DNA of 30,757 nucleotides from a virus. The translations under genes and the position numbers were made by a program. The first letter of the stretch is position 1. Each line of letters begins with the position of its first letter. The DNA is taken from positions 1-30,757 of IMG/VR virus record IMGVR_UViG_3300020470_000131, one strand, 5' to 3'. The notes beneath the pieces are model-generated. The model was not told where the DNA came from. It did not search any database and saw only the letters and a program-made list of their open reading frames with translations. Positions 1,008-22,700 of this stretch are shown here, in pieces.

Positions 1008-1054
1008 TAAAATCGGGTAACTACCCTAACCTACAAAGTGTTACCCAAGGCAGC

Positions 1055-1490: not shown

Positions 1491-1515
1491 CTTCTGCTAT
1501 ATAAACTGATATAAT
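1487..1515 (+). promoter_or_regulatory. Sigma70-type promoter upstream of the glycosyltransferase gene
   Basis: TTGACT (1487-1492) and a perfect TATAAT (1510-1515) are separated by exactly 17 bases, and the ATG at 1538 follows 22 bases after the -10 box. This is the arrangement of an early or middle, host-sigma-dependent phage promoter. A late-box-like CTATATAAAC (1497-1506) lies inside the spacer, so the site could in principle be read in two infection phases. No strong Shine-Dalgarno follows. Confidence 0.55.
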
Positions 1516-1537
1516 TGACTTGTAATTACAAAACGTT

Positions 1538-2441: not shown

Positions 2442-2444
2442 CTA

Positions 2445-2591: not shown

Positions 2592-2595
2592 AATA

Positions 2596-2621
2596 GGGAC
2601 TCCGAAAGGGGTCTCTTTTTT
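2596..2621 (+). terminator. Intrinsic terminator with GAAA tetraloop
   Basis: GGGACTCC (2596-2603) pairs with GGGGTCTC (2608-2615), giving eight pairs with two G-U wobbles, across a GAAA tetraloop (2604-2607). Six T residues (2616-2621) follow directly. This is a textbook rho-independent terminator that separates the small-gene cluster from the baseplate operon. Confidence 0.9.
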
Positions 2622-2635
2622 ATGGTTGAATGTGA

Positions 2636-2643
2636 TATAAATA
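2636..2643 (+). promoter_or_regulatory. T4-type late promoter for the baseplate wedge operon
   Basis: TATAAATA is a perfect match to the T4 late promoter box recognised by the gp55 sigma factor with the gp33/gp45 system. It lies between the terminator and the gp25 start, with the ATG 18 bases downstream of the box. The arrangement marks this as the probable start of the gp25-gp6-gp7-like transcript. Confidence 0.8.
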
Positions 2644-2660
2644 AATAAAAACTATGTCCA

Positions 2661-3062
2661 ATGGCGATCAAGAGGATATCAAGAGCATATAAAGATATTA
2701 GTTTATCTTTTGACCCTCATCCAGTATCAAGAGATTTAAAGGTTCTTCGTAATGAAAATGCGATTCGTAGGTCTGTAAGAAATATTGTTCAGACCATTCC
2801 CACCGAAAAATTCTTTAATTCACTCTTTGGATCTGATGTCTATCGTAGTTTATTTGATTTTGTCGATTTTGGTACTGCTTCCAATATACAGGGGCAAATT
2901 GAAATTGCACTAGATAACTTTGAGACAAGAATTGATAATGTGACAGTCGAAGTAGATCCTCAACCAGATATCAATAGTTTTGAAATAACGGTCACCTATG
3001 ACATTATTGGACAAGAGTTTCCACCACAAGAATATACATTCCTCTTAGAGGCAACAAGATAA
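2661..3062 (+). CDS. 25: gp25 baseplate wedge subunit
   Basis: The protein has 133 residues, almost the same as T4 gp25 (132), and has the typical layout of the GPW/gp25 family. A short N-terminal stretch, SLSFDPHPVSRDLKVLRNE (15-33), is followed by the conserved AIRRSVRNIVQTIPTEKFF segment (34-52) and the FGSDVYRSLFDF turn (56-67). A beta-strand half ending in FEITVTYDI follows. The EFPPQEYTFLLEATR end also fits. gp25 sits at the base of each wedge, binds the gp6-gp7-gp53 core and helps connect the wedge to the sheath. It is the first gene after a perfect late box. The stop is one base before the gp6 start. There is no clear Shine-Dalgarno, and an out-of-frame ATG seven bases upstream opens only a 12-codon frame. 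Confidence 0.93.
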   Translation: MAIKRISRAYKDISLSFDPHPVSRDLKVLRNENAIRRSVRNIVQTIPTEKFFNSLFGSDVYRSLFDFVDFGTASNIQGQIEIALDNFETRIDNVTVEVDPQPDINSFEITVTYDIIGQEFPPQEYTFLLEATR

Positions 3063-3063
3063 C

Positions 3064-4986
3064 ATGCCTTTTACTAAATTTACAGATCTTGATTTTGATC
3101 AGATAAAAACATCTATTAAGTCCTATCTCAGGGCTAATTCAGACTTTACTGGATTTGACTTCGAAGGATCTAATTTTTCTGTTCTAATTGATACTTTAGC
3201 TTATAACACATATATTACCGCATTCAACTCTAATATGATTGTCAATGAGTCCTTTTTGGATTCTGCGACTCTGAGAGAGAATGTAGTTTCTTTGGCAAGA
3301 AATATAGGTTATGTACCACGTTCTAGAACGGCAGCAACGGCGAATGTCACCGTAACGGTAGGATTCGGTGCCACCGACCCTGGAACCTCTACAGTATCCT
3401 TAAAAGCAGGTCTGGTATGTGTTGGAAATGCAAGTGATACCTCTTTTACATTTTCGACACCAAATGATATTTCTACTGCGGTATCTTTAAATGATGCCGG
3501 TAATTATCAGGCAACTTTTAGTAATATTGATATTAAAGAAGGTGTATTCTTAGAGAAGAAGTTTGTTATAGATGGATCATTAGATCAGAGATTTATATTA
3601 GATAATGAAGGTATTGATACATCGACCATTAAGGTTTATGCCAGTCAAGATAGTTCAGAATTAGGTGTAGAATACTCATTAGTAGAAAATATCTTAAATA
3701 TTGACAAAAATTCTACAATTTACCTCATACAAGAGGTTCAAGATGAGAGATATGAACTATTTTTTGGAGATGGTTACTTTGGTAAGAAAATACCCAACGG
3801 ATATACGGTTACCGTAAGATATATTGTTACAGATGGTAAAGCAGGTAACGGAATTGGTAAGGAAAATACCTTTTCTTTCTCTGGAAAAATCGTAGATGAG
3901 AACGGAAATCCAGAAGCACTCCTTTCTGATCCCACTATTCTCACAAATGAGACATCTAGTAACGGAGCTGACATAGAATCAATCAGTTCTATCAAATATT
4001 ATGCCCCAAAAACGTATTCTTCACAATATCGGGCGGTTACACCACGAGATTATGAAGCAATTATTAAGAAAATATACGCAGATACCGAATCAGTGGCAGT
4101 TGTCGGGGGTGAAGAGATGGATCCACCCGAATATGGCAACGTTGTCATAAGTATAAAACCAAAAAATGGTTATTTTGTCTCTGATTTTAACAAATCTAGG
4201 ATTTTATCCCAATTAAAACAGTATTCTGTATCGGGAATTAACCAAAAATTGGAAGATTTGAAGGTATTATACGTCGAAATTATCTCTTCGGTGTATTTTA
4301 ACGAAAATTTGGTTTCAACCGAAGATTCACTAAGGGCGAAAGTCATTAATTCACTCAATACTTACGCAAATTCAGTAGATTTGAACAAATTTGGTGGTAG
4401 ATTTAAGTACAGTAAGATACAACAGGTCATCGATGCCACCGATACTGCAATAACTTCCAATATTACTAAGGTAATTATTAGAAGAAACCTAAAAGCTGCC
4501 CTAAATCAGTTTGCACAGTATGAATTGTGTTATGGAAATCGATTCCATGCCACTGCTGCAGGATTTAATATTAAATCAAAGGGATTTTTCATTAGTGGAA
4601 ACTCTAAACCAGTCTATATTACTGATACTCCTGATGCAGATTTAAAAACTGGTGTACTTTCATTGGTTGAGATAAAAGATGACGGAACCTACATAGTGGT
4701 CGCTAAATCGGCAGGAACCGTTGATTATATAAAAGGTGAAATTCTCTTAGGAACTCTTAATATAACGTCCACTGTGGACGGTACAGGGGTCGTAGAGGTT
4801 CAGGCAGTTCCTGAGTCAAATGATGTCGTTGGATTGAGGGAATTGTACCTTGATTTTAGCGTTTCAAAAAGTAAAATAAATATGTTAAGAGATGTGATTA
4901 GTTCGGGTGATGAAATATCTGGAACTACATTTATTAAAGACTTCTATACCTCAAGTTATCTAAACGGACAATTAATACGAGAATAA
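3064..4986 (+). CDS. 6: gp6 baseplate wedge subunit
   Basis: This 640-residue protein is close in length to T4 gp6 (660) and sits at the T4 position directly after gp25. The N-terminal block (about 3-90) includes IKSYLRANSDFTGFDFEGSN, FSVLIDTLAYNTYITAFNSN and LRENVVSLARNIGYVPRSR, the most conserved part of the gp6/baseplate-J group. VTPRDYEAIIKKIYADTESV (about 325-344), then PPEYGNVVISIKP, is the second signature of that group. gp6 dimers form the iris-like ring that holds neighbouring wedges together and moves during sheath contraction. An AGAGG-like purine stretch lies about 12 bases before the ATG. The stop is one base before the next gene. Codon use is less AT-extreme than in the giant gene that follows. 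Confidence 0.92.
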   Translation: MPFTKFTDLDFDQIKTSIKSYLRANSDFTGFDFEGSNFSVLIDTLAYNTYITAFNSNMIVNESFLDSATLRENVVSLARNIGYVPRSRTAATANVTVTVGFGATDPGTSTVSLKAGLVCVGNASDTSFTFSTPNDISTAVSLNDAGNYQATFSNIDIKEGVFLEKKFVIDGSLDQRFILDNEGIDTSTIKVYASQDSSELGVEYSLVENILNIDKNSTIYLIQEVQDERYELFFGDGYFGKKIPNGYTVTVRYIVTDGKAGNGIGKENTFSFSGKIVDENGNPEALLSDPTILTNETSSNGADIESISSIKYYAPKTYSSQYRAVTPRDYEAIIKKIYADTESVAVVGGEEMDPPEYGNVVISIKPKNGYFVSDFNKSRILSQLKQYSVSGINQKLEDLKVLYVEIISSVYFNENLVSTEDSLRAKVINSLNTYANSVDLNKFGGRFKYSKIQQVIDATDTAITSNITKVIIRRNLKAALNQFAQYELCYGNRFHATAAGFNIKSKGFFISGNSKPVYITDTPDADLKTGVLSLVEIKDDGTYIVVAKSAGTVDYIKGEILLGTLNITSTVDGTGVVEVQAVPESNDVVGLRELYLDFSVSKSKINMLRDVISSGDEISGTTFIKDFYTSSYLNGQLIRE

Positions 4987-4987: not shown

Positions 4988-7900
4988 ATGATACATACTG
5001 GTTTTGAGTCTAAGGTTAAGGTTCAGCAAATTATCGGGAACCAACTTCCCGAATTTGTCGTAGATGAAAATCCTGCAGCCGTCGATTTTTTAAAGCAATA
5101 TTATATTTCCCAAGAATTTCAGGGTGGGCCTACTGATTTATCGGATAATTTAGACCAATATTTAAAATTAGATAATTTAACACCAGATGTAGTGGTTGGA
5201 TCCACTACACTTACTACTGGTATAGGAACAGATGATAAAACAATCTCAGTTTCCAACACAAAAGGATTTCCTAATCAGTATGGATTGTTAAAAATCAATG
5301 ATGAAATCATAACATACAAAGGAAAGACATCAACCACGTTTACAGAGTGTATTCGTGGATTTTGTGGTATTACCAGTTACCATGAAGATCTAAAAGAGGA
5401 AGAATTAGTATTTTCTACTTCAGGAATTTCATCTCATACTCAAGATTCATATATTCAAAATTTAAGTTCTTTATTTCTTAAAGAATTTTATAAAAAACAG
5501 AAATCAACGTTAGTTCCAGGTTTAGAAGGAGTTGATCTTGCTTCTGATTTAAATGTAGGGACATTCATAAAGGAAGCAAAGTCATTATATGAGTCAAAAG
5601 GAACAGATGAGTCATTTAGAATCCTTTTTAATGCTTTATATGGAGAAACCCCTAAAGTAGTCAATTTAGAGGAGTTTTTGATTAAACCATCTTCTGCAAA
5701 TTATGTCAGAAGAGAAATTATTATTGCGGAAGCACTTGCTGGTAATCCTTTAGATTTGGTTGGTCAGACAATATACAAATTAGGTGATTTGAATACTAAT
5801 GCGTCTATTTCTGAAGTTGAAACATTCAGTAGAGCTGGAATAGCATTAACCAGTAAGCAGCAGTATTTCAAAATATCTCTTTTCCGTGGTTATTCGGATA
5901 TAGAAGATACAATACAAGGAGATTTTAAAATAACTCCTTCAACAAGAGCACTTGATACTGTCAGTGTCGGTTCATCAGTAATAACAGTTGATTCTACCGT
6001 AGGTTTTGGTACTACTGGAGTTTTAGTTGCAGGAATCAATACAAATATCACTTATACTGGAAAAAGTGTAAATCAGTTCTTTGGATGTGATGGTATTACT
6101 GGTGTTATTACATCTACTTACTCTGTAAGGAATGATGAGATTTATTATGGTTATGAAAATGGTGATACGACCAAAAAAGTTGATTTAAGACTTACAGGTG
6201 TATTATCAGAGTTTGAGCAGGTCTCTAAAACATTAGCTGTCGATGAAGGTCAGATAATTTCAGTAAAAAATGTCGGTGATTTAATAGAAGGTAATTATTA
6301 CAATAAAAGTTCATCTGTTTATGAGAATATGACTCATAAACAAAAATTTGCAAATTCTTTGATTTATAATACCTGTGTAAGATATAATATAAAATCTATT
6401 TCTAGTTCTAAAGTAATCTTTGATGGTGAAATTGACAGAAGTAGTCTAAAGAAAGATGATCAAGTAGAAATACTCGTCAGAGCATCGAATAATGTTGTTC
6501 TTGGTGATACTTTTGATGTATTTGTAGAAGAAGTTGGAGGTCTTGCAGGTGATGCTAAAGAAATAAAACTTACATCGTCATTTGTTCCTGTTCCTGATAC
6601 AGAATATGATCTAAGAAGAAAAGTTAATTATGCAAAGAGTAATGCGGTTCCTTTAGAAGTCAGTAAGATTGTATCTGACGTACAGAATTTATATACTGAA
6701 GAGGATGATTATGTTTATGTTGCTTCCAATTCATTACCTTCAAAAGTTTCTTCTGTATTTTCTGGATTTACTTCTTCTTTTGTTAATGATGTCAACACTG
6801 AATTAAAGGCAGTTTCTGTCGATTATCCTCCATCTGCTGTTGGTACTGGATTGACTGCATTGGTTGGAATAGATACTGTCACATTTGGTGCTATTCAATT
6901 TGGCAATGATGTTCCTTTTGTGACAGGAGATCAGGTATATTATCAACCTTCTGGAAATTCTTATGTTGGATTGGAAACGGGTAGTTATTTTGTAGGAATT
7001 TTAACCACTTCTAGTGACACAAGAACTATACAATTATATTCATCACAATCTTTTATTAATACTGGTAATTATATACAATTAAAATCTAATAGAATTGTAA
7101 GTACAGGAAGTTCTTTTATCACAGAATATTCAACAGGTAATCATAAGTTTACCTTATATTCTCAAAAAACTAATGAAATTGCTCCTCAGAAACTACTTAA
7201 AAAGTTTCCATTAGAACTAACCACTAATAGAGGAAAACAAACTGAAACACCTATAGGTTCTACTGGATTGTTAATTAATGGTGTAGAGATTACTAATTAT
7301 AAGTCGAAGGATAATATCTATTATGGACCTTTAAAATCTATTAATATTTTAAATGGTGGTTCTGATTACGATCTTGTCAATCCACCAAAAATAGAAATTT
7401 CTGCAGGATCAGGGACGACTGCATTAGTTCAACCAGTTATTGAAGGTGGTATAAAAAAAGTTTATATTGACAAACAGCAATTTAATATTAATGAATTTAT
7501 TTCTATTAATATTACTGGAGGAAATGGAGATGCTGTTTTAGAACCATCTATCGTCAGGTCAAGTAGAAGTGTTGAGTTTGATGGAAGAATCACCAATAAT
7601 GGCGGTGGAATTAGTACAGCTACTAATACCATTACATTTTTAACTGATCATGATTTTTATAATCAACAACAAGTAATTTATAATTCTAATGGTCAATTAG
7701 GAATAGGTGTTGGTATTGGAACAACAACATTAGTTACTAATTCATCTTACTTTGCTAAAGTGACAGCAAATAATAAGATTCAATTATATTATTCTCCAGA
7801 AGATGTTGTAGCAAATGGTGTAGGGGTTAATACTGTAGGATTAGGTGTTTCTAATACTTCAGGTATTCATAGATTTGTTACTTTACCAAATCAAAAATCT

Positions 7901-10900
7901 ATTGATAGTATCAAGGTTTTAGATGGAGGTATGTTTAGTAATAGAAAATTATTAGTTAAACCTTCAGGTATATCGACACAATATAATAAAATCACTTTTG
8001 AGAATCATGGATTTGATGATGGTGATGTAATTGAGTATAATATACAATCTGGTTTGGGTACTGTTTCTCCACAACCAATTTCTGGATTGACCACTGTTAC
8101 AGGAATAACGACAACCACACAATATTATAACATTGTAAAGTTGGATGATAATTCTTTCCAATTATCTGATGCTGGTGTAGGAGCAGGTGTAAGTGATACT
8201 AAGTTTGAACGTGGATTAACTATAGACTTTTTATCACAAGGTACTGGATATCAAATATTTAAATATCCAGATGTAGAGATAACATTAAAGTATAGTCCTG
8301 TTGGGTTTGGTACAACATCTCAAAGTTATACTGATATGGTATTAACTCCTGATATTAGGGGAAGTATTGTTGATTCTTATCTTTATGAACCTGGTACTGG
8401 TTATGGATCTACAATATTAAACTTTGAAAAGAAACCAACGATATCCATAAAAGCAGGAAAGAATGGAGTTTTAAAACCAGTTGTCGTAAATGGGTTAGTT
8501 GAAGCTGTCAATATTCAATATGCTGGAGAAGAATATTTTTCTATTCCAGAATTAGAGGTATTTGATCCTACTGGAGCTGGTACTGGTGCTGAAATAAGAC
8601 CAGTCATAGTTAATAATAAAATAAGTGATGTTAAAATTGTTAATACTGGAATTGGATATTCAAGCACATCTGTTGTAAAAGTTAATTCACCAGGTAAAAA
8701 TGCAGTATTAGATACTTCTATTAGATCATTATCACTCGATTTAAATAATAAAATGGGTGATCAATTGTTATTGGAAGGTCCTAATAAGTTATCTTATAGT
8801 CTTTGTGGTTATGCAAAGACCTTTAGAGAATCTTTTGGTGAAATAGGAAGTGGAACAACACAAGCTTCTAAGATCATTGGATGGGCTTATGATGGAAATC
8901 CAATATATGGACCTTATGGATATGAAAATGTATCAGATTCTAGTTCTCCAGCTAGAAGATTGGTTAGTGGTTATGAGGCAAATATTACAAATATTGTAGA
9001 TAGACCTGTTGGATTCTCTGCTGGTTTCTTTGTAGATGACTATAAATTTACAAATAATGGTGATTTAGATCGTAATAATGGTAGATTTGGAAAAACACCA
9101 GAATTTCCTAATGGTACTTATGCATATTTTGCTACAATAGATGATGCTGGTAAGACTCAATTCCCATATTTCATCGGAAATTCATATAGATCCGTTCCTT
9201 TAGAGCAAAATATTGATCAAGATTTTGATTTTAAGGGTTCAGAGTTAAGAAGAAATACATTTCCTTATAGAGTTTCTGATAAAAATGCTGATAATGACTT
9301 TATTATTGAAACCAATGAACTTGAAGATCAAAAAATAGAGATAGAATCAGTTACTGACGGTTCAGTTGATCAATTATTGGTCGTTTCAGCAGGAGAAAAT
9401 TATAAAATTAATGATTCTATTGATTTTGACAACACTGGTGGTGGTTCAGGAGTAATTTCTAAGATTTCTTCCTTAAAAGGAAAGGATGTTACCAATGTAA
9501 GTGTTGCAACATCTTCATATAATGATGCAGTATTCAGTTGGGTTAATAAAAATACCATAAGAGTTAGTGTTTTACCAAGTCATGATTGGATAAACAATGA
9601 TTATATTACAATTTCTGGTGTTTCTACTTCATCTGGCATTTCTTCTAGTATTTCGGCATTAAGTCAACTAGATGGAAATTATAATATTGGAGTTTCTTCT
9701 TTAAGTGCATCAATAATTTCGGATGTAATACCATCTGCATCGGGAGTAACAACTGAAATATATGTTACTTCGATACCAGAGACCATTTCAATAGGAAGTA
9801 GTGCTGTAATTGGTGGAACAAATACTGAAATAGTAAAAATTCTTAATATCTATAGAGATCTTAAGGCATTGAGAGTTATAAGATCTACAGGACTTGCTCA
9901 TACTATATCCTCACCTATAACTTATACTTCAGATTCTTTTACTATTGATAGGTCAACAGATTATTTTGAATCTGAAGTAAATGATATAGTATATTTTAAC
10001 CCATCACAATCAGTTGGTTTTGGAACGACAGCAGGAGTTACTCATACAACCTCCTTCCGTTTTGGTTCTACAGAAATAATTACAAGAAATATACCAACTA
10101 AGAGAATTTATCTTGGGGAACATCCATTTCAAGTTGATCAACAGATAACATTTGCTAAACCAACTCCAGGTGCAGCTTCTATTGTGATATCAGATACTCC
10201 CACATCAACCACGTATGACCTCCCATCCACTGTTTACATTGCTGATGTCACACCAAATACGATTGGTATAAAAACAGGTATTGGCACAACCAGTGGAGAT
10301 TTCACTGATGTATTCTTTACAAGTGGTGGTTCTGATATTGATGATTACTCATTTACAACTAATTATTCACAAGTAACTGGGAATCTTCAGAGATTGACAG
10401 GAACAGTTGCAATAACCACAACTGCTACGTGTAATTTAAAATTTGGAGATAGAATTAAATTAGATATTAAACCAGATTTATCAGTTGGAATCGGTACATC
10501 TACTGCTGTAAGAGTTGTAAGAGATTCTGATACTGGTTATATCTTAATAGATCCTGTTGAAACTTCTTCTGCAAATATAAATCTTACAGATGATACTATC
10601 AGGATTAATAGTCATGGATTTGAGAGAGGTGATAAGATATTCTATACCATTGCAGATGGTACTGTTCCAACTGGTCTAACAACTAATAGATCATATTTTA
10701 CATATGTTGTTGATGAGGATCATATTAAATTTTCTGAAACATCTGTTGATTGCTTTAGTAATCCACCAATAACTGTAAGTATTGCATCTACTGGTACTAG
10801 TCAAAGTAAATTCTATCAAATTAATCCTCAACTTGAGGTTGTTAAAAATAACAACTTAGTATTTGATTTATCAGATTCTTCTTTAGAGAATTATCAATTA

Positions 10901-13900
10901 AAATTCTATTATGATAATGAATTTAAAAATAATTTTGTATCTACAGGATCTACTACGAATACATTTAGTATAGTTAGTGCTGGTGGAACAATTGGAATAG
11001 GAACCACAGCTTCAACTACACTTAATCATAATGCATCTTATCCATCTAAGTTATATTATTCTCTAGAAAGATCTGGATTTATTAGTACAGCAGATACTGA
11101 AGTTAATAATCATTCTGAAATAAAATTTGTAGATAGTAGTTTCAATAGGTCATATAGTGTTGTTGGAGCATCTTCATCTACATTTAATATTTCTTTAGAC
11201 CAAATTCCAGAAAAACTATCTTATTCTGATAGTGAGTGTGATTCTATAACTTATACTACAACATCTTTAAATGAGACAGGTGGTATTAATGCTGCCAATA
11301 TTATTTCTGGTGGAGTTAATTATAAGAAATTGCCTAATTTTGTTGGATCATCTTCTACTGAAGGGACTGGTGGTTATGTGATTGCGAAATCAAGGACTAT
11401 TGGTAATGTTAAGCAAGTAAGAATTATTAATGAGGGATTTGAATATTCTACAGACAGTACCTTAGAACCTTCTGCATTAATTTCTCCACTCATTTCGATT
11501 AATAATTCCAATACCATAGGTGTTGTTAGTATTACTAGTGGTGGTTCTGGTTATATAGATGCTCCAGATATAATTATTGTAGATTCTACATCAAGAGAAA
11601 AAATTGATAGGGGTATTCTTAGACCAACTCTAACTGGATCAGCTATTTCTAAGGTTGAGGTTGTAAGTTCTCCAAATGGTCTTTCTGATGAACCACCTAC
11701 ATTATTCACAATTAATAATGATAATGGTGTTGGTATTTCATCTATTGTCTCTAACTCAACTGGAATATTTACATGTTGGTTAGATACTCCTTCATCAGGA
11801 TTTTCAACTTTACCATTCTTGGTTAATGATGAAGTATTCATAGAAAATGTTACTCAACATGATCCAGTATCAATAGGAGGATCTGGATTTAACTCTGAAG
11901 ATTATGGATATAGATTTGGTAAAGTTACCAATTATATTACTGGATTAAAAGATAGAGTTACAATTGATCTTGCTGGCATATCCACTAACACTGGAATAGC
12001 AGTTACTGATCAAGGCTCATTTGCAATGATAATCAATAGAAAGAATTATCCATCTTTCACTACAGTTGAGGAATCAAATAAATTTATTATTGGTGAAGAG
12101 TTAATAAAAGATAATGTTTTAGTAGGATTGGTAATTACACATTCTGAAACTGACTTTATTAAAGTATTTGGTAATCATGAGTTAAAAGTTGGTGATATTG
12201 TTACTGGAAGAACTTCTGGATCAATAGCTACTATTTCAAGTATTCAAGAGAACTTAGGAAAGTATTCTGTTAAATTCTCAGTTAAAAAGAATATTGGATG
12301 GTCTGATGATATTGGAAAACTTGATTTGGATACTCAGGTAACACCAGATAATGATTATTATCAAAATCTATCATATACTATTAAGAGTACAAAAGGATTT
12401 GATGAATTAAGAAGTCCAGTAAGTGCATTACTTCATACAAGTGGACTTAAGAATTTTGCTGATGTAGGAATAGGTTCTACGACAAGATCAACTGGTGGAA
12501 TTTCTACAGTAGGAGATTGGAGAGTTGGAACATCTAGTACTGATTTTTCAGTTGTAATACAGGATGTTGTAAATGACAATAAGGTTTGGACTATTAATAA
12601 TTATGATGAAGCATATGATTATGGTAATAGTGCTACTCAATCTCGATATATAAAATTTGAAAATAAGGTTTTATCAGATTATACTACTGCTAAGAGTAAT
12701 GAAGTTTTGTTGATTGATGATATCAATAGTCAATTCTCTAATTTGGATGGAGAACCAAGCGAATATTTAGATCTTATAGAATTAGATAGTAATGTTCCCT
12801 ATCAAAATATCTTCTATAGAATTACTAACTTAACAAATACTGCTGTTCAATCAAATGATGTAGTAGTATTGAATAATGGAACAGATGTAGTTTTATTACA
12901 AAAATCTAATTTAGAAGATTCATCTAGTATTGGAAACTTTAGTATTAATAAAGATGTTTTTGGGGTATACACACTTAGATTTACACCAAATCCAAATGCA
13001 TTTGATTATGACTATAATCTCAAATCAATTAAGACTACTTTTGATAATTCTGCAGGTGTTGGAACTTATCCAGTAGGATTTATCAATAAAACTGGATTTG
13101 TAGGTATTGCTACGACAGCTAGTGCTGGAGTAACCACTACATCAGTTGTTTCAGTAGATTCTGCTAAGTTTAATTCTTTCCATGTTCAGAATCATTTAAC
13201 TAATAAGACGACTGATGAAATGAATTATGTGGAAATATATGTTACACATGATGGAACAAATACTTATACTTCTGAATATTATATTGATACCCATAATCCT
13301 GTAGATGGATATTCAAACACTTTAATGGGATCTTTTAAGGGGAATCTTGATGGATCTGTATTTTCTTTAGAATATGAGAATGATTCGACTGATGAGATTG
13401 AAATTAATTCTGATATTGTGGGATTTGGTACCACTGCTGTAGGTGTTGGAACATATAGGTTCCTTGCATCTGGCCAATCAGAAGGTGCTGAAAGAACTGC
13501 AATTTATCAATCTGATTATACAGTTGGAATAGGAACGACAAATATTGTTCAATTAACTGCAGGTTTATTTAATTCAGCTAAATCTATAGTTCAAGTTAGT
13601 GCTGGATCTACAAGAATTGTTTCAGAAGTTATATTTAATCATGATGCTACTGATACTTTTGTACAGACTGGCCCGTTTTTAACACCTGTTGGTATTGGAA
13701 CAACCAATCCAGTTGGAGTCTTTAGTGGAATATATGATGGTACTAACTTCTCTTTATCATTTACACCTGAAAATGGATATCTAGCAAATAGTATTGAAGT
13801 ATCTGCTCTTACTCTAGCATTGTATACTGAGAATGAAGAAGATAATATTCCTTTGATTAATGACTTTGAATATGGTAAAGTAAATGAATCTATTGATCTA

Positions 13901-16900
13901 CAATACTATAATGCTATTAATGGGTTAAGAATTAATAGAACTGAGTTCAGTTTACTTCATGAAGGAACACCAATCTTTGCCAAGACTTTCGATCCTAGTG
14001 ATTCTAATATTGTTAATCTTTCCACAGGTTTATTCAGCATTGATAAACATTTCTTCAGAACAAATGAAGAGTTAATATACACACCCAATTCTTCATTTGT
14101 TGGTCTTGGAAGTACTGCAATGCAATATCAAAGTGGTGCATATCATCATCAACTTCCATCTTCAGTGTTTGCTATTAGAAACGATGCTAACAGTTTCTAC
14201 ATATCAACAACAAGAGCAGGAGCAGCTGTCACATTTGTCGGAGTTGGTACTGGAAATATTCACGAATTTGCTATGGCAAATTCAAATACAAAAACAGTAT
14301 TAACTATTGATAATTTAATTCAATCACCATTAGCATATTCTCCTATTAGTCATACATTACAAAATAACCCAGAATCAGTATTGGGCAGCACTGGTATAGG
14401 TACTGATGCAACTATATTTTCTATCAGTGGAATATCATCATTAGCTCCTACTGATATATTAAAGATTGATGATGAGTTTGTAAAAGTTCTTGATATTGGA
14501 ATAGGAACTCAGACTACTGGGCCAATTACAGTTGGTGTTGGAACAACTAATTTGGTTCAAGTTCAAAGAGGTTTTGTTGGATCAGCTGCAACTGCTCATA
14601 CAAATACAACAGCAGTTCAACTTTATAAAGGTTCATATCGAATTCTTGGTAAGAAAATTCATTTCACAGAACCTCCTAAAGGAAATCCTCAAGTAACTAA
14701 GAATGATAGTAATTTGGATTGGCCAACCTCTTCATTTACTGGAAGAGTTTTCTTAAGAGATGATTATACTACCAACCAAGTGTATGATGATGTTTCTACT
14801 GAGTTTACTGGAATTGCCACAAACTTTAGTTTAAAGGTTAATGGATCTGCTGCAGTTGGTATGGGAACCACAGGTGGTAATGGTATTGCATTGATTAATG
14901 GTATATTCCAAAGACCAACAGCAAAAAATAATCCACAAAATAATTATGAGATATTAGATCCTACCACAGGGGCAGCTTCAACTAGTATAATGTTTACTGG
15001 TATTACTACGGAATATGGAGATCCAGTAGTAATTAATGATACTGATATAAATGAAAATCAATTACCAAGAGGTGGAGTAATAATTTCCTTAGGATCCACA
15101 CCAGGATTAGGATATGCTCCTTTGGTACCAGCACAAGTTTATGCAGAGACTGATGCTAATGGTACTATTACAAGTTTAGTCAGTGCTGCTTCAACAGGAC
15201 CTAGTAATTCTATTACAACGGCATCTTATAATAATGAAACTGGATATTTAGAGATCACTACTCAAAATGCACATAATTTTGTAGTTGGAATTGTAGATCA
15301 AGTAAAACTTGCAGGTTTAGAATTTACTTGTAGTGGATCGTTCAATGTCTACGATGCAGATTATAATGAAACCACTGGTGATTTAATATTGACAGTTGGT
15401 GATCATTATCTAGCAGCAGGTCAATTTATTGGAATTAAAACTGATTCTTTGACATTTACTTGTGATGCCGATAACTATGCAACAAATCATTCTTATCCAC
15501 GTCATGGTACTGATCCAATTGCAGGAGTATCTACATATATCAATTCAACAACCAATAGCACTATTACTGTTAATGTTGGTGTTGGAACTACTAGTACGCA
15601 TCAATTTGTGGGTGTTGGTACAGAAGCAATTATTGTTAGAAGTGGATATTCAGGGACAACCAGTAATATCTTCCCATATGCTGCTGTAGGATTTGGTAGC
15701 ACAAGTTTTGATTATACGATTGTAAGTATTGGTGCTACAAATAAATTTACAACTGACGTTGGAATTAACTCCATACCTCATACTTTTGTTGGTGGTGGTA
15801 GTGTAATGCCTTGGTATGCAGACGCTAATCTTGGTTCTGGTTATTATGGTGATACCGTTTCTATTGGGGTTACAGATATACCATTTACTCATAAGTTTGT
15901 AAGTGCTGCATCAGGTACTATAGTAGGTTATACTACTGCACCTTCTTATGTTGATTATAATGCAGCAACTGGATATATGGTGGTATCTCTACCTAATCAT
16001 GGAAAGACTACTAGTGATACTGTAACATTTGCTGATAACAAGATTACTCTTACGTGCTCTAAGGATGACTATGCAACAGAACATACTTATCCAAGAGCAA
16101 GTGATCGTATCTCAGGAATAGCAACTGCTATAACTGCTTATGATACAGATACATTTACAGTATATGTTGGTGAGAATGCTGGTTCAGGTGCTTCAGTTAC
16201 AGCCACAATAGGCATTGGTGGAACTCTAACCTTTGCTATTGGTGCTGGTGGTACTAATTACCAGAATCCAGCGATTAACATTCCTGAACCATCATATGCT
16301 GGTCTTGGAATTACTGGAATATCCAGACTATCAACTGGATCTACTACCGATACTGGAGTTGGATTACTTTTAGATTTACAAGTATCGGCAGCTTCTACTG
16401 TTGGTGTAGGGTCTACACAGTTTAGTATTAATAATTGGGAAATTGCAAGAAATGGATATGCATTCCAACGTGGTGATGTATTTGCTCCTGTAGGATTAGT
16501 TACAGATTCTAGTTTGTCAAGTCCAATAGAAGAATGTCAATTTACTGTATTGGATACATATGCAGATCCATTTGCAGCATGGCAATTTGGACAATTTGAT
16601 TATATTGATGATATTAAACCGTTCCAAGATGGAATTAGAAAAAGATTTGATTTAAAATATGATGGAGATCTTTTAAGTTTCGAAGTTCCAGCAAATCCTG
16701 AGTTCCCATATATTAGTCTTGCAAATGCACTATTCATTGTGATAAATGGCATTATTCAAGAACCAGGAACTGCTTATTCGTTTAATGGTGGTACCTCGTT
16801 TATATTTACAGAAGCTCCTAAAGCAGTAGATGATGTTGCAATATTCTTCTATCGTGGAAGTGCTGACGTTGATACAGTATTAGTTACTAATGTTATTCCT

Positions 16901-18118
16901 TCTGTTAAAGAAGGTGACTTAGTTGAAATGAAGAAAATTACTGCATTGAATCCTCCTACAGAAATTAATCAGACTCCTAGAGTTATTGTTGATTTATCTA
17001 CATCAGATAGAATCGAAACTAATTTGTATACTGGAGAAGGAATTAGTGATACAAAACCTAAGTCAATAAGTTGGACTAAACAAAAAATTGATAGAATTGT
17101 AAATGGTGAAATATTCTATAAATCTAGAGAAAGTTTAGAATCATTAATATTCCCAACTGGAAGAATTATTAGTGATTTCTCAACAACTGATAATGAATTA
17201 TTCCTTGATAATGGAGATTTATTTGATTATGATGTCGTACCTTCGGTTACTCCTCTTGGTGGATTTATCGTAGATAATAGTAGTCCTGTTGCTGCTGCAT
17301 TAACTGCTACAGTATCTGCTGCTGGAACTATTTCAGGACTTACCATTGTTAGTGGTGGATCTGGTTATGTTGGAGCAACAACTTCAGTTTCCATTGCTAT
17401 GCCACCAGTGGGTGTAGGCACCTTTATTAAACCAGATGGTTCAGTTGGTATAGGATCAACTGCAACAGCAACTGTTACAGTAACTAACGGAATTCTTACA
17501 GGAACTCCAACAATTACTGGAATTGGATTGGGTTATACAACTACAAATCCACCTAAAGTAATTGCTGCTCTTCCTTCATATAAGTCTGAGTTAATTACCA
17601 ATATTACTTCTGTTAAGGGATTTGCTGGAATTGTTACTGGTATTGGAACAGCAGCAGGTGTTGGTACAATAAGTGCTGTTAAGTTTCATCTAACTGGTAT
17701 TGGAACAGCAGTATGGAGTGATTTGAGTGTAGGATATCCTATTTCTGTATTTGATACACAAGTTGGATCTGGAGTAAGTTCTGTCTATGAATCTGGTAAT
17801 GGTATAGTTGGAGTTGGAACAACCTTCTTAGATAATATCTACCGTATTGCTCAGATATCTTATCCATCTGCATCTGGTGCAAGTGGATTGGTTACATGTA
17901 ACGTTGAGTATTTTGGTAATCATACTGGAATAGGATCAACTGGAAGTGTTGCAATAGGAGGATTCTCCTGGGGCAGATTAGCTGGAACTTTAACCAGAAA
18001 TTCACCAGTCGGGTTTGCAGTTAGTAACTATACTGTTAATTCTGGATTGACTACTTTCCCAACATTACAAAGAAGAAGTGAGGGAATTAGAGATACTGGT
18101 GGAATTGAACCAAAATAA
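4988..18118 (+). CDS. Giant gp7-position baseplate wedge protein with YHYH domain and many beta modules
   Basis: This uninterrupted 4,376-residue frame lies exactly between gp6 and gp8, where T4 has gp7 (1,032 residues), so gp7 function is inferred from position. The N-terminal part looks conserved: VDENPAAVDFLKQYYISQEF (about 25-44), then AKSLYESKGTDESFRILFNA (about 197-216). A YHYH-type domain spans about 1267-1401, with the core GWAYDGNPIYGPYGY (1298-1312) and FPYFIGNSYR at its end. A block near 3859-3980 (FGQFDYIDDIKPF, then FIVINGIIQEPGTAY) resembles parts of other marine T4-like structural proteins. The rest is a mosaic of repeated beta-rich modules with many G[IVF]G[ST]T turns, described in separate entries. 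No protease, lysozyme or transmembrane segment is evident. Its N-terminal part probably docks in the wedge while the rest forms an outward arm. Codon use is extremely AT-rich. Confidence 0.8.
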   Translation: MIHTGFESKVKVQQIIGNQLPEFVVDENPAAVDFLKQYYISQEFQGGPTDLSDNLDQYLKLDNLTPDVVVGSTTLTTGIGTDDKTISVSNTKGFPNQYGLLKINDEIITYKGKTSTTFTECIRGFCGITSYHEDLKEEELVFSTSGISSHTQDSYIQNLSSLFLKEFYKKQKSTLVPGLEGVDLASDLNVGTFIKEAKSLYESKGTDESFRILFNALYGETPKVVNLEEFLIKPSSANYVRREIIIAEALAGNPLDLVGQTIYKLGDLNTNASISEVETFSRAGIALTSKQQYFKISLFRGYSDIEDTIQGDFKITPSTRALDTVSVGSSVITVDSTVGFGTTGVLVAGINTNITYTGKSVNQFFGCDGITGVITSTYSVRNDEIYYGYENGDTTKKVDLRLTGVLSEFEQVSKTLAVDEGQIISVKNVGDLIEGNYYNKSSSVYENMTHKQKFANSLIYNTCVRYNIKSISSSKVIFDGEIDRSSLKKDDQVEILVRASNNVVLGDTFDVFVEEVGGLAGDAKEIKLTSSFVPVPDTEYDLRRKVNYAKSNAVPLEVSKIVSDVQNLYTEEDDYVYVASNSLPSKVSSVFSGFTSSFVNDVNTELKAVSVDYPPSAVGTGLTALVGIDTVTFGAIQFGNDVPFVTGDQVYYQPSGNSYVGLETGSYFVGILTTSSDTRTIQLYSSQSFINTGNYIQLKSNRIVSTGSSFITEYSTGNHKFTLYSQKTNEIAPQKLLKKFPLELTTNRGKQTETPIGSTGLLINGVEITNYKSKDNIYYGPLKSINILNGGSDYDLVNPPKIEISAGSGTTALVQPVIEGGIKKVYIDKQQFNINEFISINITGGNGDAVLEPSIVRSSRSVEFDGRITNNGGGISTATNTITFLTDHDFYNQQQVIYNSNGQLGIGVGIGTTTLVTNSSYFAKVTANNKIQLYYSPEDVVANGVGVNTVGLGVSNTSGIHRFVTLPNQKSIDSIKVLDGGMFSNRKLLVKPSGISTQYNKITFENHGFDDGDVIEYNIQSGLGTVSPQPISGLTTVTGITTTTQYYNIVKLDDNSFQLSDAGVGAGVSDTKFERGLTIDFLSQGTGYQIFKYPDVEITLKYSPVGFGTTSQSYTDMVLTPDIRGSIVDSYLYEPGTGYGSTILNFEKKPTISIKAGKNGVLKPVVVNGLVEAVNIQYAGEEYFSIPELEVFDPTGAGTGAEIRPVIVNNKISDVKIVNTGIGYSSTSVVKVNSPGKNAVLDTSIRSLSLDLNNKMGDQLLLEGPNKLSYSLCGYAKTFRESFGEIGSGTTQASKIIGWAYDGNPIYGPYGYENVSDSSSPARRLVSGYEANITNIVDRPVGFSAGFFVDDYKFTNNGDLDRNNGRFGKTPEFPNGTYAYFATIDDAGKTQFPYFIGNSYRSVPLEQNIDQDFDFKGSELRRNTFPYRVSDKNADNDFIIETNELEDQKIEIESVTDGSVDQLLVVSAGENYKINDSIDFDNTGGGSGVISKISSLKGKDVTNVSVATSSYNDAVFSWVNKNTIRVSVLPSHDWINNDYITISGVSTSSGISSSISALSQLDGNYNIGVSSLSASIISDVIPSASGVTTEIYVTSIPETISIGSSAVIGGTNTEIVKILNIYRDLKALRVIRSTGLAHTISSPITYTSDSFTIDRSTDYFESEVNDIVYFNPSQSVGFGTTAGVTHTTSFRFGSTEIITRNIPTKRIYLGEHPFQVDQQITFAKPTPGAASIVISDTPTSTTYDLPSTVYIADVTPNTIGIKTGIGTTSGDFTDVFFTSGGSDIDDYSFTTNYSQVTGNLQRLTGTVAITTTATCNLKFGDRIKLDIKPDLSVGIGTSTAVRVVRDSDTGYILIDPVETSSANINLTDDTIRINSHGFERGDKIFYTIADGTVPTGLTTNRSYFTYVVDEDHIKFSETSVDCFSNPPITVSIASTGTSQSKFYQINPQLEVVKNNNLVFDLSDSSLENYQLKFYYDNEFKNNFVSTGSTTNTFSIVSAGGTIGIGTTASTTLNHNASYPSKLYYSLERSGFISTADTEVNNHSEIKFVDSSFNRSYSVVGASSSTFNISLDQIPEKLSYSDSECDSITYTTTSLNETGGINAANIISGGVNYKKLPNFVGSSSTEGTGGYVIAKSRTIGNVKQVRIINEGFEYSTDSTLEPSALISPLISINNSNTIGVVSITSGGSGYIDAPDIIIVDSTSREKIDRGILRPTLTGSAISKVEVVSSPNGLSDEPPTLFTINNDNGVGISSIVSNSTGIFTCWLDTPSSGFSTLPFLVNDEVFIENVTQHDPVSIGGSGFNSEDYGYRFGKVTNYITGLKDRVTIDLAGISTNTGIAVTDQGSFAMIINRKNYPSFTTVEESNKFIIGEELIKDNVLVGLVITHSETDFIKVFGNHELKVGDIVTGRTSGSIATISSIQENLGKYSVKFSVKKNIGWSDDIGKLDLDTQVTPDNDYYQNLSYTIKSTKGFDELRSPVSALLHTSGLKNFADVGIGSTTRSTGGISTVGDWRVGTSSTDFSVVIQDVVNDNKVWTINNYDEAYDYGNSATQSRYIKFENKVLSDYTTAKSNEVLLIDDINSQFSNLDGEPSEYLDLIELDSNVPYQNIFYRITNLTNTAVQSNDVVVLNNGTDVVLLQKSNLEDSSSIGNFSINKDVFGVYTLRFTPNPNAFDYDYNLKSIKTTFDNSAGVGTYPVGFINKTGFVGIATTASAGVTTTSVVSVDSAKFNSFHVQNHLTNKTTDEMNYVEIYVTHDGTNTYTSEYYIDTHNPVDGYSNTLMGSFKGNLDGSVFSLEYENDSTDEIEINSDIVGFGTTAVGVGTYRFLASGQSEGAERTAIYQSDYTVGIGTTNIVQLTAGLFNSAKSIVQVSAGSTRIVSEVIFNHDATDTFVQTGPFLTPVGIGTTNPVGVFSGIYDGTNFSLSFTPENGYLANSIEVSALTLALYTENEEDNIPLINDFEYGKVNESIDLQYYNAINGLRINRTEFSLLHEGTPIFAKTFDPSDSNIVNLSTGLFSIDKHFFRTNEELIYTPNSSFVGLGSTAMQYQSGAYHHQLPSSVFAIRNDANSFYISTTRAGAAVTFVGVGTGNIHEFAMANSNTKTVLTIDNLIQSPLAYSPISHTLQNNPESVLGSTGIGTDATIFSISGISSLAPTDILKIDDEFVKVLDIGIGTQTTGPITVGVGTTNLVQVQRGFVGSAATAHTNTTAVQLYKGSYRILGKKIHFTEPPKGNPQVTKNDSNLDWPTSSFTGRVFLRDDYTTNQVYDDVSTEFTGIATNFSLKVNGSAAVGMGTTGGNGIALINGIFQRPTAKNNPQNNYEILDPTTGAASTSIMFTGITTEYGDPVVINDTDINENQLPRGGVIISLGSTPGLGYAPLVPAQVYAETDANGTITSLVSAASTGPSNSITTASYNNETGYLEITTQNAHNFVVGIVDQVKLAGLEFTCSGSFNVYDADYNETTGDLILTVGDHYLAAGQFIGIKTDSLTFTCDADNYATNHSYPRHGTDPIAGVSTYINSTTNSTITVNVGVGTTSTHQFVGVGTEAIIVRSGYSGTTSNIFPYAAVGFGSTSFDYTIVSIGATNKFTTDVGINSIPHTFVGGGSVMPWYADANLGSGYYGDTVSIGVTDIPFTHKFVSAASGTIVGYTTAPSYVDYNAATGYMVVSLPNHGKTTSDTVTFADNKITLTCSKDDYATEHTYPRASDRISGIATAITAYDTDTFTVYVGENAGSGASVTATIGIGGTLTFAIGAGGTNYQNPAINIPEPSYAGLGITGISRLSTGSTTDTGVGLLLDLQVSAASTVGVGSTQFSINNWEIARNGYAFQRGDVFAPVGLVTDSSLSSPIEECQFTVLDTYADPFAAWQFGQFDYIDDIKPFQDGIRKRFDLKYDGDLLSFEVPANPEFPYISLANALFIVINGIIQEPGTAYSFNGGTSFIFTEAPKAVDDVAIFFYRGSADVDTVLVTNVIPSVKEGDLVEMKKITALNPPTEINQTPRVIVDLSTSDRIETNLYTGEGISDTKPKSISWTKQKIDRIVNGEIFYKSRESLESLIFPTGRIISDFSTTDNELFLDNGDLFDYDVVPSVTPLGGFIVDNSSPVAAALTATVSAAGTISGLTIVSGGSGYVGATTSVSIAMPPVGVGTFIKPDGSVGIGSTATATVTVTNGILTGTPTITGIGLGYTTTNPPKVIAALPSYKSELITNITSVKGFAGIVTGIGTAAGVGTISAVKFHLTGIGTAVWSDLSVGYPISVFDTQVGSGVSSVYESGNGIVGVGTTFLDNIYRIAQISYPSASGASGLVTCNVEYFGNHTGIGSTGSVAIGGFSWGRLAGTLTRNSPVGFAVSNYTVNSGLTTFPTLQRRSEGIRDTGGIEPK
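5250..5425 (+). repeat. DDE-I-x-Y / RG / H adhesin-like module, copy 1
   Basis: The encoded pattern is: a short strand, GFPNQYGLLKINDEIITYKG, a threonine-rich strand, CIRGFCGITSYH, then a closing strand. This matches a small module common in phage tail and fibre proteins: G-(f/p)..G-x-(l/i)-x-I-x-(d/n)-E-x-I-x-Y, then RG and H. Further copies are at 5960-6155 (degenerate) and 14415-14640 in this gene, and at 26035-26250 in the DUF4815 gene. Confidence 0.6.
5960..6155 (+). repeat. DDE-I-x-Y / RG / H module, copy 2 (degenerate)
   Basis: The reading VDSTVGFGTTGVLVAGINTN, then ITYTGKSVNQFFGCDGITGV, follows the same order as copy 1: an entry strand with GF, a short central strand, Y-T-G-K, then a C-x-G-I-T-G turn. 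It has lost the acidic pair and the RG. I read it as a diverged relative, with less certainty than the other copies. Confidence 0.4.
13160..13832 (+). repeat. Tandem pair of about 95-residue beta modules inside the giant gene
   Basis: Two neighbouring stretches (residues about 2726-2825 and 2859-2950) share the same order. First is KFNSFHVQ or LFNSAKSIVQ, then a strand with VTHDGTNTY or FNHDATDTF. Next is SFKGNLDGSVFSLEYEND or VFSGIYDGTNFSLSFTPENG, then a closing strand that runs to IEINSDIVGF or IEVSALTLALY. The pattern implies an ancestral tandem duplication with later divergence. The DNA is no longer obviously repeated, so the event is old. Confidence 0.55.
14415..14640 (+). repeat. DDE-I-x-Y / RG / H module, copy 3
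   Basis: The translation contains LAPTDILKIDDEFVKVLDIG, then LVQVQRGFVGSAATAHTNTT, preserving the IDDE strand, the RG turn and the histidine of copy 1. It differs by an inserted G-rich loop with two GxGT turns between the two halves. It lies about 9 kb downstream of copy 1 in the same gene. Confidence 0.55.
15227..16075 (+). repeat. Three-copy YN-xx-TG...TC repeat inside the giant gene
   Basis: Three segments of about 35 residues align by eye: YNNETGYLEITTQNAHNF (start 3414), YNETTGDLILTVGDHY (3459) and YNAATGYMVVSLPNHG (3657). Each ends in a strand with EFTC, TFTC or TLTC. Copies 2 and 3 are also followed by the same D-x-YAT-x-H-x-YPR stretch and a strand ending in VNVG or VYVG. The first copy lacks that second half. 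Confidence 0.65.
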
Positions 18119-18158: not shown

Positions 18159-19775
18159 ATGTCTGCCGTCGTAACAGATCAATTCCGAATATTTAATGCA
18201 GGTAATTTTGTAGATTCTGTACTAGATACTAATAATTCTTATTATGTATTTCTAGGACTTAGTAATCCTACAACTCCTAATCCTGGATTTGGTAGAACAA
18301 GTACTTGGAATGATGCATCTGGTCCTCCTAACCCAACTGATAACTTTCAATATGAATCTCAATATGGAGATACTTCTCTTTTTGGGAAGAGAATTGTTAG
18401 TAACAACATAAGAAGAGTTGTAAGAAAGGTCGAGTGGACTGAGAATACTTATTATGACATGTATAGACATGATTATAGTATTAGTAATAAAGCACCTAAT
18501 TCTCAAACTGGAAGATTATACGATGCAAATTATTTTGTAGTTAATAGTGATTTTAATGTTTATATTTGTATAGAGAATGGTAGTTCAGGAGCTCCTGGTT
18601 CTACAACTGCTAAAGGAGGTAAATCTAAAGATGAACCAACTTTTACTGATTTAGAACCTTCTGCTGCTGGAACTAGTAATGATGGTTATATTTGGAAATT
18701 CTTATTTTCTATATCTCCTAGCGATGTTGTAAAATTTGATTCTACTGAATATATTGTTGTTCCTAATGATTGGGCAACTTCAACAGATTCTCAGATTCAG
18801 AATGTTAGAGAAGCAGCTGATTCTGATATAAATTTAAATCAACTTAAAACGGTTTATATTGAGAATGGTGGTTCTGGGTATATAAGTGACACTAAAACAT
18901 TAGATATATTAGGTGATGGTACTGGAGGAAAAGTTTCAGTTACCACTACAGGTGGTGTTGTTACTTCTGCAATAGTTACAGCAGGTGGAAGTGGATATAG
19001 TTATGGTATGGTTGATTTAGGACCTCTTCAACCAGCATCATTCCCTCCAGGGAGTACAACAGTATATCCTGCTAAATTAATACCTATTATCCCTCCTTCT
19101 AGAGGTCATGGATATGACATCTATAAAGAATTGGGTGCTGATAGAGTTTTAGTTTATGCAAGATTTGATGATTCGACTAAAGATTTTCCAACTGATACAA
19201 AATTTTCTCAAGTTGGAATTGTAAAAAATCCAACAACATATACTAATAATAATACTATATTTACTGGTAATCAATATTCATCTTTAGGTGCACTTAAAAT
19301 TGATCCTACTACATGGGATAGTACAGGACTTGTTATAGGAAGTAAAATAACACAAGTACTTACCACTGCTACTGGCAATGCTAAAGGTTATGTTACTTCT
19401 TATGATAAGCAAACTGGTGTTTTAAAGTATTATCAAGATAGATCATTATATTATCAAAATAGTGCTAACCATAATGATCAAACAGATTATATTGGAATTA
19501 GTAGTGAAGCTAAAGTATTGGGATTCGAATCTAGTACATCTAGTATTCAGTTTGTAGGATCCACTCCAGGTGATGCTAATGTCTCTATAGCATTTACTGG
19601 AAGCACAGTAACTGATGGTGATAAAGAAGTAGATCTTGGGGTATATTTCACAGGCGGTCTTGCCAATCCTGAGATAAATAAAACAACTGGCGATGTCATC
19701 TACATTGACAATCGAAAGGAAGTCACTAGAGATAGTAGACAAAAAGAAGACATCAAAATCGTCCTGGAATTTTAA
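18159..19775 (+). CDS. 8: gp8 baseplate wedge subunit
   Basis: This 538-residue protein is recognised mainly by its C-terminus. GDVIYIDNRKEVTRDSRQKE followed by DIKIVLEF closely resembles the end of T4-like gp8. The N-terminus (VVTDQFRIFNAGNF, then YYVFLGLSNPTT) and the wedge position after the gp7-like gene agree. gp8 is a dimer that joins the wedge arm and bridges gp7 to the peripheral baseplate parts. T4 gp8 has 334 residues, so this copy is about 200 longer. Part of the excess is a GGSGY-type repeat at about 232-290 (VYIENGGSGYISD, then AIVTAGGSGYSYG), which is also found in neighbouring genes. A perfect late box lies 17 bases upstream of the ATG. The last 130 bases are noticeably less AT-rich than the rest. 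The stop is six bases before the next start. Confidence 0.88.
   Translation: MSAVVTDQFRIFNAGNFVDSVLDTNNSYYVFLGLSNPTTPNPGFGRTSTWNDASGPPNPTDNFQYESQYGDTSLFGKRIVSNNIRRVVRKVEWTENTYYDMYRHDYSISNKAPNSQTGRLYDANYFVVNSDFNVYICIENGSSGAPGSTTAKGGKSKDEPTFTDLEPSAAGTSNDGYIWKFLFSISPSDVVKFDSTEYIVVPNDWATSTDSQIQNVREAADSDINLNQLKTVYIENGGSGYISDTKTLDILGDGTGGKVSVTTTGGVVTSAIVTAGGSGYSYGMVDLGPLQPASFPPGSTTVYPAKLIPIIPPSRGHGYDIYKELGADRVLVYARFDDSTKDFPTDTKFSQVGIVKNPTTYTNNNTIFTGNQYSSLGALKIDPTTWDSTGLVIGSKITQVLTTATGNAKGYVTSYDKQTGVLKYYQDRSLYYQNSANHNDQTDYIGISSEAKVLGFESSTSSIQFVGSTPGDANVSIAFTGSTVTDGDKEVDLGVYFTGGLANPEINKTTGDVIYIDNRKEVTRDSRQKEDIKIVLEF
18847..19022 (+). repeat. GGSGY-type beta repeat inside gp8
   Basis: Two half-repeats, VYIENGGSGY and AIVTAGGSGY, flank the strand VSVTTTGGVV. 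The module reads V-x-I-x-N-G-G-S-G-Y, then G-x-G-G-K/A, then a G-V-V turn. The same layout occurs in the giant gene (about 7345-7450, 11520-11600 and 17340-17560), in the DUF4815 gene (25490-25740) and at the end of gp14 (30640-30757). Confidence 0.6.
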
Positions 19776-19781: not shown

Positions 19782-22700
19782 ATGGCACAGAAAAAAGATT
19801 TAAATATCAGTCCTTATTATGATGATTTTGATCCGAGTAAGAATTTTTACAAAGTCTTATTTAAACCAGGATATCCAGTTCAAGCTAGAGAATTAACTAG
19901 TTTACAGTCAATTCTTCAAAATCAAATAGAAGATTTTGGATCCCATATGTTTAAAGAGGGATCTATTGTTATTCCAGGAGCAGCTACAATTGACCCTGGA
20001 TATAATGCAGTAAAGTTAAATGCAACTCAATTTGGGATTGATATATCTCTTTATACTAGTCAATTAATTGGTAAAGTTGTAGAAGGTGAAACTACAGGTG
20101 TGGCAGCAACAGTTGATTTTGTTGCATTACCTGATGGTGGAGATGTAGAAGATTTAACAATATATGTAAAATATCAAAGTGCTGGTATATTTGATCCTAC
20201 AAAGGTTACATTTGCTGATGGTGAAGCATTATTGGTAAAAGAGAATTTGACATATGGAAATACTACTATTAATGCAGGAACTGCAGTTGCAACTCTAATA
20301 TCTAGTAATGCTACAGCTATTGGTTCTGCTGCTTCTGTTGATGATGGTGTTTATTTCATCAGAGGAACTTTTGTAAATGTAAATAAGCAAACTATAATTC
20401 TTGATCACTATACTAATAACCCTTCTTATAGAATCGGTCTAAAAGTTGATGAAGTAATAATAGGTGCTAAAGATGATCCTTCTTTATATGATAATGCTAA
20501 AGGATTCACTAATTATGCTGCACCAGGTGCTGATAGACTTAAGATTTCTTTAACTCTTACTAAAAAGTTACTTACTGATAAGAATGATACTGATTTTGTT
20601 GAGATAGCAAGAACTGATGATGGGGAAATTCAAAAAATTACCACAAAAACTCAGTATAATTTAATTAGAGATTATATTGCAGAAAGAACATACGAAGAAT
20701 CTGGAAATTATTCTTTACAACCTTTTGATGTTAGTATTGTTAATTCATTAAATGATAGACTAGGTAATGGTGGATTGTATTATGCCACTCAAAAAACTGA
20801 AGATGGAAATACACCATCTGATGATTTAATGTGTGTTAAAGTTTCTGAAGGTGAAGCTTACGTAAAAGGATATGATGTAACAATAGATGGTACTAATGTT
20901 ATAGATGTAGAGAAACCAAGAGATACCAAAAAAATTGATGCAGGAAGTGTTCCTTTCTCTATGGGGAATAAGTTAACCATTACTAATCTTGGTGGTCAAC
21001 CACAATATAGAAATGTTGTTCAATTATATGGTGAATTGCAACAACAAATTGATCATGTGGGAATTATAGGAGAAGCAAGAGTATATTCTGTTAATCCCAG
21101 AACATATCAATCTAGTGGAGATGCAACTACTTGGGATTTACGTCTTTATGATGTTCAGACATATGATAGAATTGCATTAAACGAGAGTTTACCAAGTTCT
21201 GGAATTACTACTGGATATCGTGTAAAAGGTTTAAGAAGTGGTGCTGAAGGTTATTCTGCTTCTCATGGAACAACAGCTACTTCATTAGGTTTAAATAGTG
21301 GAACTAATTGGGTAAATATTTCTCCTACTTCAGGAAGATTTGTTAAGGGTGAACAAATTAGTATTAATGGTATTTCTACATCAAGATCGATTACAGAAGT
21401 TGTTTCATATAGTCCTAGAGATGTTAAATCTGTTAAACAAACTGCAGTAAGTCCATATGTGCAAAATTTTGTAGCAGATTCTGTTTTAACTTCTGTTTCT
21501 TTTCCTAGTCAAATATCAGAAGGAGATATAACTGGTGGTAATACAATTAAAAGTCCTGGAAAAATATTTACTAATGTTAAAAAAGGTGATGTAATAAGAT
21601 ATCAACATGCAACTACTGATGACGTTAGTTATAATGTAGTATCATCTATTAATGATGGTGGTAAAAATTTAACTCTTACTGCTATTAATGATGTTCCTGG
21701 AGTATATGATGGATCTGTTAATAATGGTAATAATAGATCTATAAGTCTTGCTTATTCATCCATGGATTCTAATAATATTGGTTTATATGGAGTTCTTCCA
21801 GAACCAAATATTTCTTCCGTAGATTTTTCTAGCTCTACTCTAAATGTTTCTGCACAAATAACAGGACAATCTATATCTGGATTTGGTGCTACTGTTTCTA
21901 TAAGTAATGTAGAAGATGGTAGCGGTGTAGCTATATCAACTGCATTTTTTGAACCATATACTGTTAGTAAGTATTCGGTTCATTTTGGTAGTACTGCTGG
22001 TTTTGCCACAGTAACTTCTGATAGAGTAGAGTTATTAAGTGGAAGTTCTTCTTTAAGTTTCTCTGGATTAGAGGCTTCAGGTGGTGCAGATGCTAATACT
22101 GTAATTAGTGTAACTGCAGAGAAGCAAGGAATACAAAGTAAAATAAAGCAATATCAAAGAAGTCAATTTGTTACTGTAGATCAATCAAGTAATGCAGGAT
22201 CTGGTAGTTCTATTGCAAATCTTAATGATGGATTGACATATAATAGTACTGCTTATGGATTAAGAGTTCAGGATGAAGAAATATCTCTAAATGTTCCTGA
22301 TGTTTCTAGAGTATTGGCAGTCTATGAATCTGTTGATACATCTGCACCTACTTTTGATGTTATAGAATTTGCTTCAGCTGCAAATGTTTTAGATAATGCA
22401 ATAATTGGAGAAAATATTGCAGGACAAACCTCTGGTACTATTGCAAGAATAGTAACAAATAATGGTTCAACACCTTCATCTGGTGGAAATAATAGATTGG
22501 GTGTAGTGTATGTTAACGATAGTGTATTTGAATCTGGTGAAGAAGTTATATTTAATGAATCAAATATTCAAACTACTATTGAGAATATTAATTCACAACC
22601 CAATGATGGTCAATATCATGATGTTACAAATTCTTTCTATCTAGATAAAGGTCAGAGAGAGCAATATTATGATTATTCAAGAATTGTTAGAAGATCTAAT

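Follow-up and report, generated by a model that had tools for sequence, protein, structure and literature searches.

Between the baseplate wedge genes gp6 and gp8, P-SSM2 and other Kyanoviridae encode a giant protein annotated as gp7, the baseplate wedge subunit or initiator, and products of this interval have been recovered from virions. Proteomics found 71 peptides, with 13.5% coverage, for the 6619-aa S-SZBM1_208 (PMC9146016), and 91 virion peptides were reported for the 1937-aa gp7-position protein of S-CREM2 (PMC10665884). T4 gp7 itself has been described as absent from cyano- and pelagimyophages, with VrlC proposed as its replacement (PMC7029224). Here we examine this interval in the window, the whole stretch of DNA that was analysed, which has 30,757 bases and is an entire virus record; because it is far shorter than related phage genomes, the record is probably a fragment. 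The gene between gp6 and gp8 very probably belongs to a Kyanoviridae-type cyanophage and is orthologous to gp7 (baseplate wedge initiator); it is made of an N-terminal core and a giant extension.

A giant gene at the gp7 position

The features of the locus, in window coordinates, are as follows.

2661..3062, + strand: gp25-like baseplate wedge subunit (PHROG profile phrog_261)
3064..4986, + strand: gp6-like baseplate wedge subunit (PHROG profile phrog_219)
4988..18118, + strand: gp7-position gene, 4376 aa, 469 kDa, single open frame with a full-length PHROG 2885 match
4988..6097, + strand: N-terminal core, residues 1-370, in every cyanophage gp7 compared
5570..5926, + strand: block homologous, by profile comparison (hhalign), to T4 gp7 residues 729-820; residues 195-313
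6884..8281, + strand: beta-repeat modules, residues 633-1098 (at 633-726, 870-973 and 990-1098, by profile self-comparison)
8852..9142, + strand: C-terminal half of a YHYH domain, residues 1289-1385 (PF14240 positions 89-183 of 193)
12803..13828, + strand: three weakly similar repeats, residues 2606-2947 (2606-2687, 2711-2815, 2844-2947)
15158..16207, + strand: variable-length segment with YPR beta modules, residues 3391-3740
16208..18115, + strand: conserved C-terminal region, residues 3741-4376
18159..19775, + strand: gp8-like baseplate wedge subunit (PHROG profile phrog_438)
19782-27260: VrlC-type gene, 2492 aa (PHROG 358, DUF4815), directly after gp8

As an earlier note had read from the letters of the sequence, the frame between gp6 and gp8 is uninterrupted for 4376 codons, from an ATG at 4988, one base past the gp6 stop codon, to a stop at 18118, and the profiles for gp25, gp6 and gp8 around it place it at the gp7 position. 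The sizes given there also held, the gene taking up 42.7% of the window (about 43% had been claimed) and its product being 4.24 times as long as T4 gp7 (1032 aa; over four times had been claimed). A chance origin of the frame was rejected, its probability from composition alone being ~10^-155. The same note had raised the possibility that a sequencing error hides stops; this was rejected as well, because all 36 related loci keep the frame open, as far as each contig reaches, and because the gene shows purifying selection. When the gene was divided into 18 segments of 250 codons and set against a relative of 81% identity (loci L013 and L261 of a single contig), each segment gave a pN/pS of 0.18-0.55, the values for the neighbours gp6 and gp8 being 0.18 and 0.26, and judged by these ratios every segment is under purifying selection. 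Together with the 71 virion peptides of the longer S-SZBM1_208, this supports translation of the whole length, so that the entire frame is probably translated; the peptides are from the relatives S-SZBM1 and S-CREM2.

The protein matches the PHROG 2885 'baseplate wedge subunit' profile with 3391 bits, residues 3-4363 aligning with profile positions 3-4178 of 4179; it shares with Kyanoviridae gp7 and PHROG 2885 the full-length match, the location between gp6 and gp8 and the giant size. The gene order gp25-gp6-gp7-gp8-VrlC is also that of P-SSM2, P-HM2 and S-TIM4. Proteins of the gp6-gp8 interval in related phages have the following lengths.

Melnitz-2: 896 aa
HTVC008M: 1016 aa
S-CRM01: 1454 aa
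S-CREM2: 1937 aa
S-SSM7: 3007 + 3001 aa, two genes
S-RSM4: 3515 aa
S-SRM01: 3895 aa
B23: 2845 + 1081 aa
ACG-2014f: 4225 aa
P-TIM68: 4307 aa
S-CAM7: 4314 aa
P-HM2: 4454 aa
MED4-213: 4458 aa
S-T4: 4749 aa
P-SSM2 (PSSM2_111, YP_214343.1): 5195 aa, annotated gp7
syn9 gp101: 6076 aa
S-TIM4 ORF_101: 6603 aa
S-SZBM1_208: 6619 aa

The comparison spans 896-6619 aa, and most published marine cyanomyoviruses compared have ~3,000-6,600 aa at this position, with smaller members such as S-CREM2 (1937 aa) and S-CRM01 (1454 aa); in five uncultivated contigs containing both gene ends, the contig coordinates put the length at ~4185-4376 aa. With 4376 aa the window protein is mid-range, and the suggestion of an exceptional size for this type of phage is not supported, the long form in P-SSM2 being already annotated as gp7. 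Giant size is typical of Kyanoviridae gp7 and has stood in public records for years with proteomic support, and the window gene is in this respect ordinary.

In two Synechococcus phages the gene is in pieces. In B23 (L006:14362-26141) gp7 is split into genes of 2845 and 1081 aa with a four-base overlap, the split point corresponding to window residues ~2853-2966, and in S-SKS1 (NC_020851; L007:15992-28384) it consists of four overlapping open frames in different frames, with no annotated gene in the first ~7 kb; either frameshift errors in the S-SKS1 record or a real break-up would give this arrangement. Elsewhere in the window, the VrlC-type gene is a second giant gene, and positions 1538-2299 encode a 253-aa protein of PHROG 1574 whose match to a glycosyltransferase is weak (E 2.5e-5); this is also the sole stretch where the DNA is 74% identical to that of an isolate (S-SSM7) over ~800 bases. 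An Rfam search of the window gave no match.

The N-terminal core and T4 gp7

The block at residues 195-313 of the core carries the motif KSxYxSKGTxxSFxxLFxxLYGE ... LVGQTIY. When a profile of 71 N-terminal regions was compared by hhalign with a profile of 24 T4-type gp7 proteins, this block matched T4 gp7 residues 729-820 over ~92 aligned columns (E 1.4e-6, probability 89-90%), and reversed-profile controls gave P 0.09 or worse. Independently, T4 gp7 has matches to PHROG 26741 (E 1.7e-5) and, at the corresponding place, to PHROG 2885 (E 1.3e-4). From these profile matches we conclude that residues 195-313 are homologous to T4 gp7 729-820, and the relation to T4 gp7 that the earlier note proposed to look for by HMM comparison is borne out. 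Moreover, the 1016-aa gp7-position protein of Pelagibacter phage HTVC008M has a profile match to the core with E 3e-20. Its gene (L328:33435-36485) is annotated 'head closure Hc2', which is probably wrong because it lies between gp6 and gp8 and carries the gp7 core.

AlphaFold models of two parts of the protein were of low to moderate confidence (mean pLDDT 68 and 55; pTM 0.44 for residues 1-600), and the portions with good confidence were mostly beta. With either model, Foldseek found nothing in the PDB at E 0.001, PDB sequence searches with residues 1-800, residues 1101-1533 and the N-terminal profile were equally negative, and we found no structure of a giant-gp7 baseplate.

The extension and its variable segment

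The earlier note had seen conserved structural sequence nowhere but in the N-terminal part and in a block around residue 3859. This view proved too narrow: in an alignment with six giant relatives, identity is 25-54% in every 100-residue bin except those covering 3401-3700, where it falls to 15-17% with about half gaps. The bin 1301-1400 (53%) in the half-YHYH region is as conserved as the N-terminus, identity across 36 relatives is 50-86% in residues 3741-4376, and residues 3848-3982, the block noted near 3859, are common even to syn9 and S-SZBM1. The description of the remainder as a chain of beta modules agrees with the mostly beta portions of good confidence in the models and with profile self-comparison, which sorted diverged repeats within the protein into at least five families; a plain BLAST self-search had shown none at E 0.01. 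The family at residues 633-1098 recurs at ~1859-1952 and 3006-3127.

The Pfam YHYH match at residues 1289-1385 has 87 bits, and the region is conserved in 463 phage records. YHYH domains are predicted metal-dependent hydrolases (PMC7824862). A hydrolase function is unlikely here, because the N-terminal half of the domain is missing, and the histidine motif is absent from all gp7 proteins aligned, the window protein included. S-SZBM1_207 (L089:7634-9232), a separate structural protein adjoining gp7, keeps the complete motif that its neighbour lacks, which suggests that the domain was divided or duplicated between neighbouring genes.

Among six giant relatives, the aligned body at residues 1-3390 has 3251-3476 aa in all, and the segment corresponding to residues 3391-3740 ranges from 42 to 786 aa. 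Thus, within the group, length changes mainly in one place. The YPR modules of this segment are found, too, in tail fibres and in further structural proteins of both Synechococcus and Prochlorococcus phages; their use as a marker of Prochlorococcus phages was rejected, as they are present in many Synechococcus phage records. By its variability and its modules shared with tail fibres, this segment (also delimited as 3401-3700) would be the likeliest host-facing part of the protein. It is rather unlikely, yet conceivable, that it is an exchangeable host-contact cassette whose YPR modules are exchanged between gp7 and tail fibres and vary in copy number; if that were so, cyanophages would tune host range via the baseplate arm itself as well as via separate fibres.

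Alternative readings and comparison with described systems

One alternative is that an unrelated beta-module fibre protein merely took the place of gp7, VrlC having replaced gp7 itself. The published report of a missing gp7 (PMC7029224) speaks for this, and so do the lack of a T4 counterpart for most of the protein length and the lack of a match to any solved structure. However, the profile link between residues 195-313 and T4 gp7, with which the PHROG profiles agree, and the occurrence of the same core between gp6 and gp8 in HTVC008M argue against it, and VrlC, which in both the window and HTVC008M is an additional gene after gp8, need not replace gp7. Hence we regard this reading as improbable, and because these phages have both the core and a distinct VrlC gene, the published statement that gp7 is missing appears to be wrong.

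It could also be that only the first part of the gene is used, the product being cut, terminated early, or its extension decaying. The broken genes of B23 and S-SKS1 would fit such a situation, but the C-terminal part is still coded even in these two phages, purifying selection reaches the end in every segment, all 36 related loci are free of stops, and the identity of residues 3741-4376 to 36 relatives is 50-86%, so we give this explanation little weight, although the protein may be processed proteolytically in the virion. A reading of the extension as an enzyme that opens the host wall draws on the 87-bit YHYH match, its conservation in 463 phage records and the predicted hydrolase activity of YHYH domains; with half of the domain present, and the histidines missing from every aligned gp7 and kept in the neighbouring S-SZBM1_207, it was rejected and is very improbable.

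Under the preferred reading, that of a gp7 orthologue with a giant extension, the N-terminal core would take the part of T4 gp7 in the wedge with gp6, gp25 and gp8, and wedge incorporation as in T4 would give six copies per virion. The ~3,900-residue C-terminal extension may form a large arm, as the earlier note had proposed for each of the six wedges, or an outer baseplate layer, in which the conserved body (~3,400 aa) and the C-terminus (~640 aa) would act as a scaffold, and the length-variable YPR segment between them might be exchangeable and perhaps touch the host surface or other fibres. By sequence, cyanophage gp7 is a T4-gp7 core followed by a giant extension at the C-terminal side, an anatomy that would correct the published absence of gp7. 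Moreover, in the closest relatives of the window almost all variation in length is confined to a single segment carrying fibre-type modules, which offers structural and host-range studies of these very abundant ocean viruses a precise target.

The gp7 of P-SSM2 and of other Kyanoviridae likewise lies between gp6 and gp8 and belongs to the same family over nearly its whole length, the window protein being ~39% identical to P-SSM2 gp7 and 43% to the S-SRM01 protein. P-SSM2 gp7 exceeds it by 819 aa, chiefly through a variable segment with nine YPR motifs where the window protein has two. S-SZBM1_208, S-TIM4 ORF_101 and syn9 gp101 occupy the same position but are longer and are followed by two or three extra genes before gp8; syn9 and S-SZBM1 share with the window protein the N-terminal core, the half-YHYH region and the block at 3848-3982, and differ from it by a ~500-aa insertion in the core after ~residue 115. 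HTVC008M gp55 (1016 aa) has the same position and the core, but lacks the giant extension. T4 gp7 likewise lies between gp6 and gp8 and contains the homologous block, but there the core is preceded by ~640 residues and is not followed by a large extension, whereas in the window protein the core is at the N-terminus and ~3,900 residues follow.
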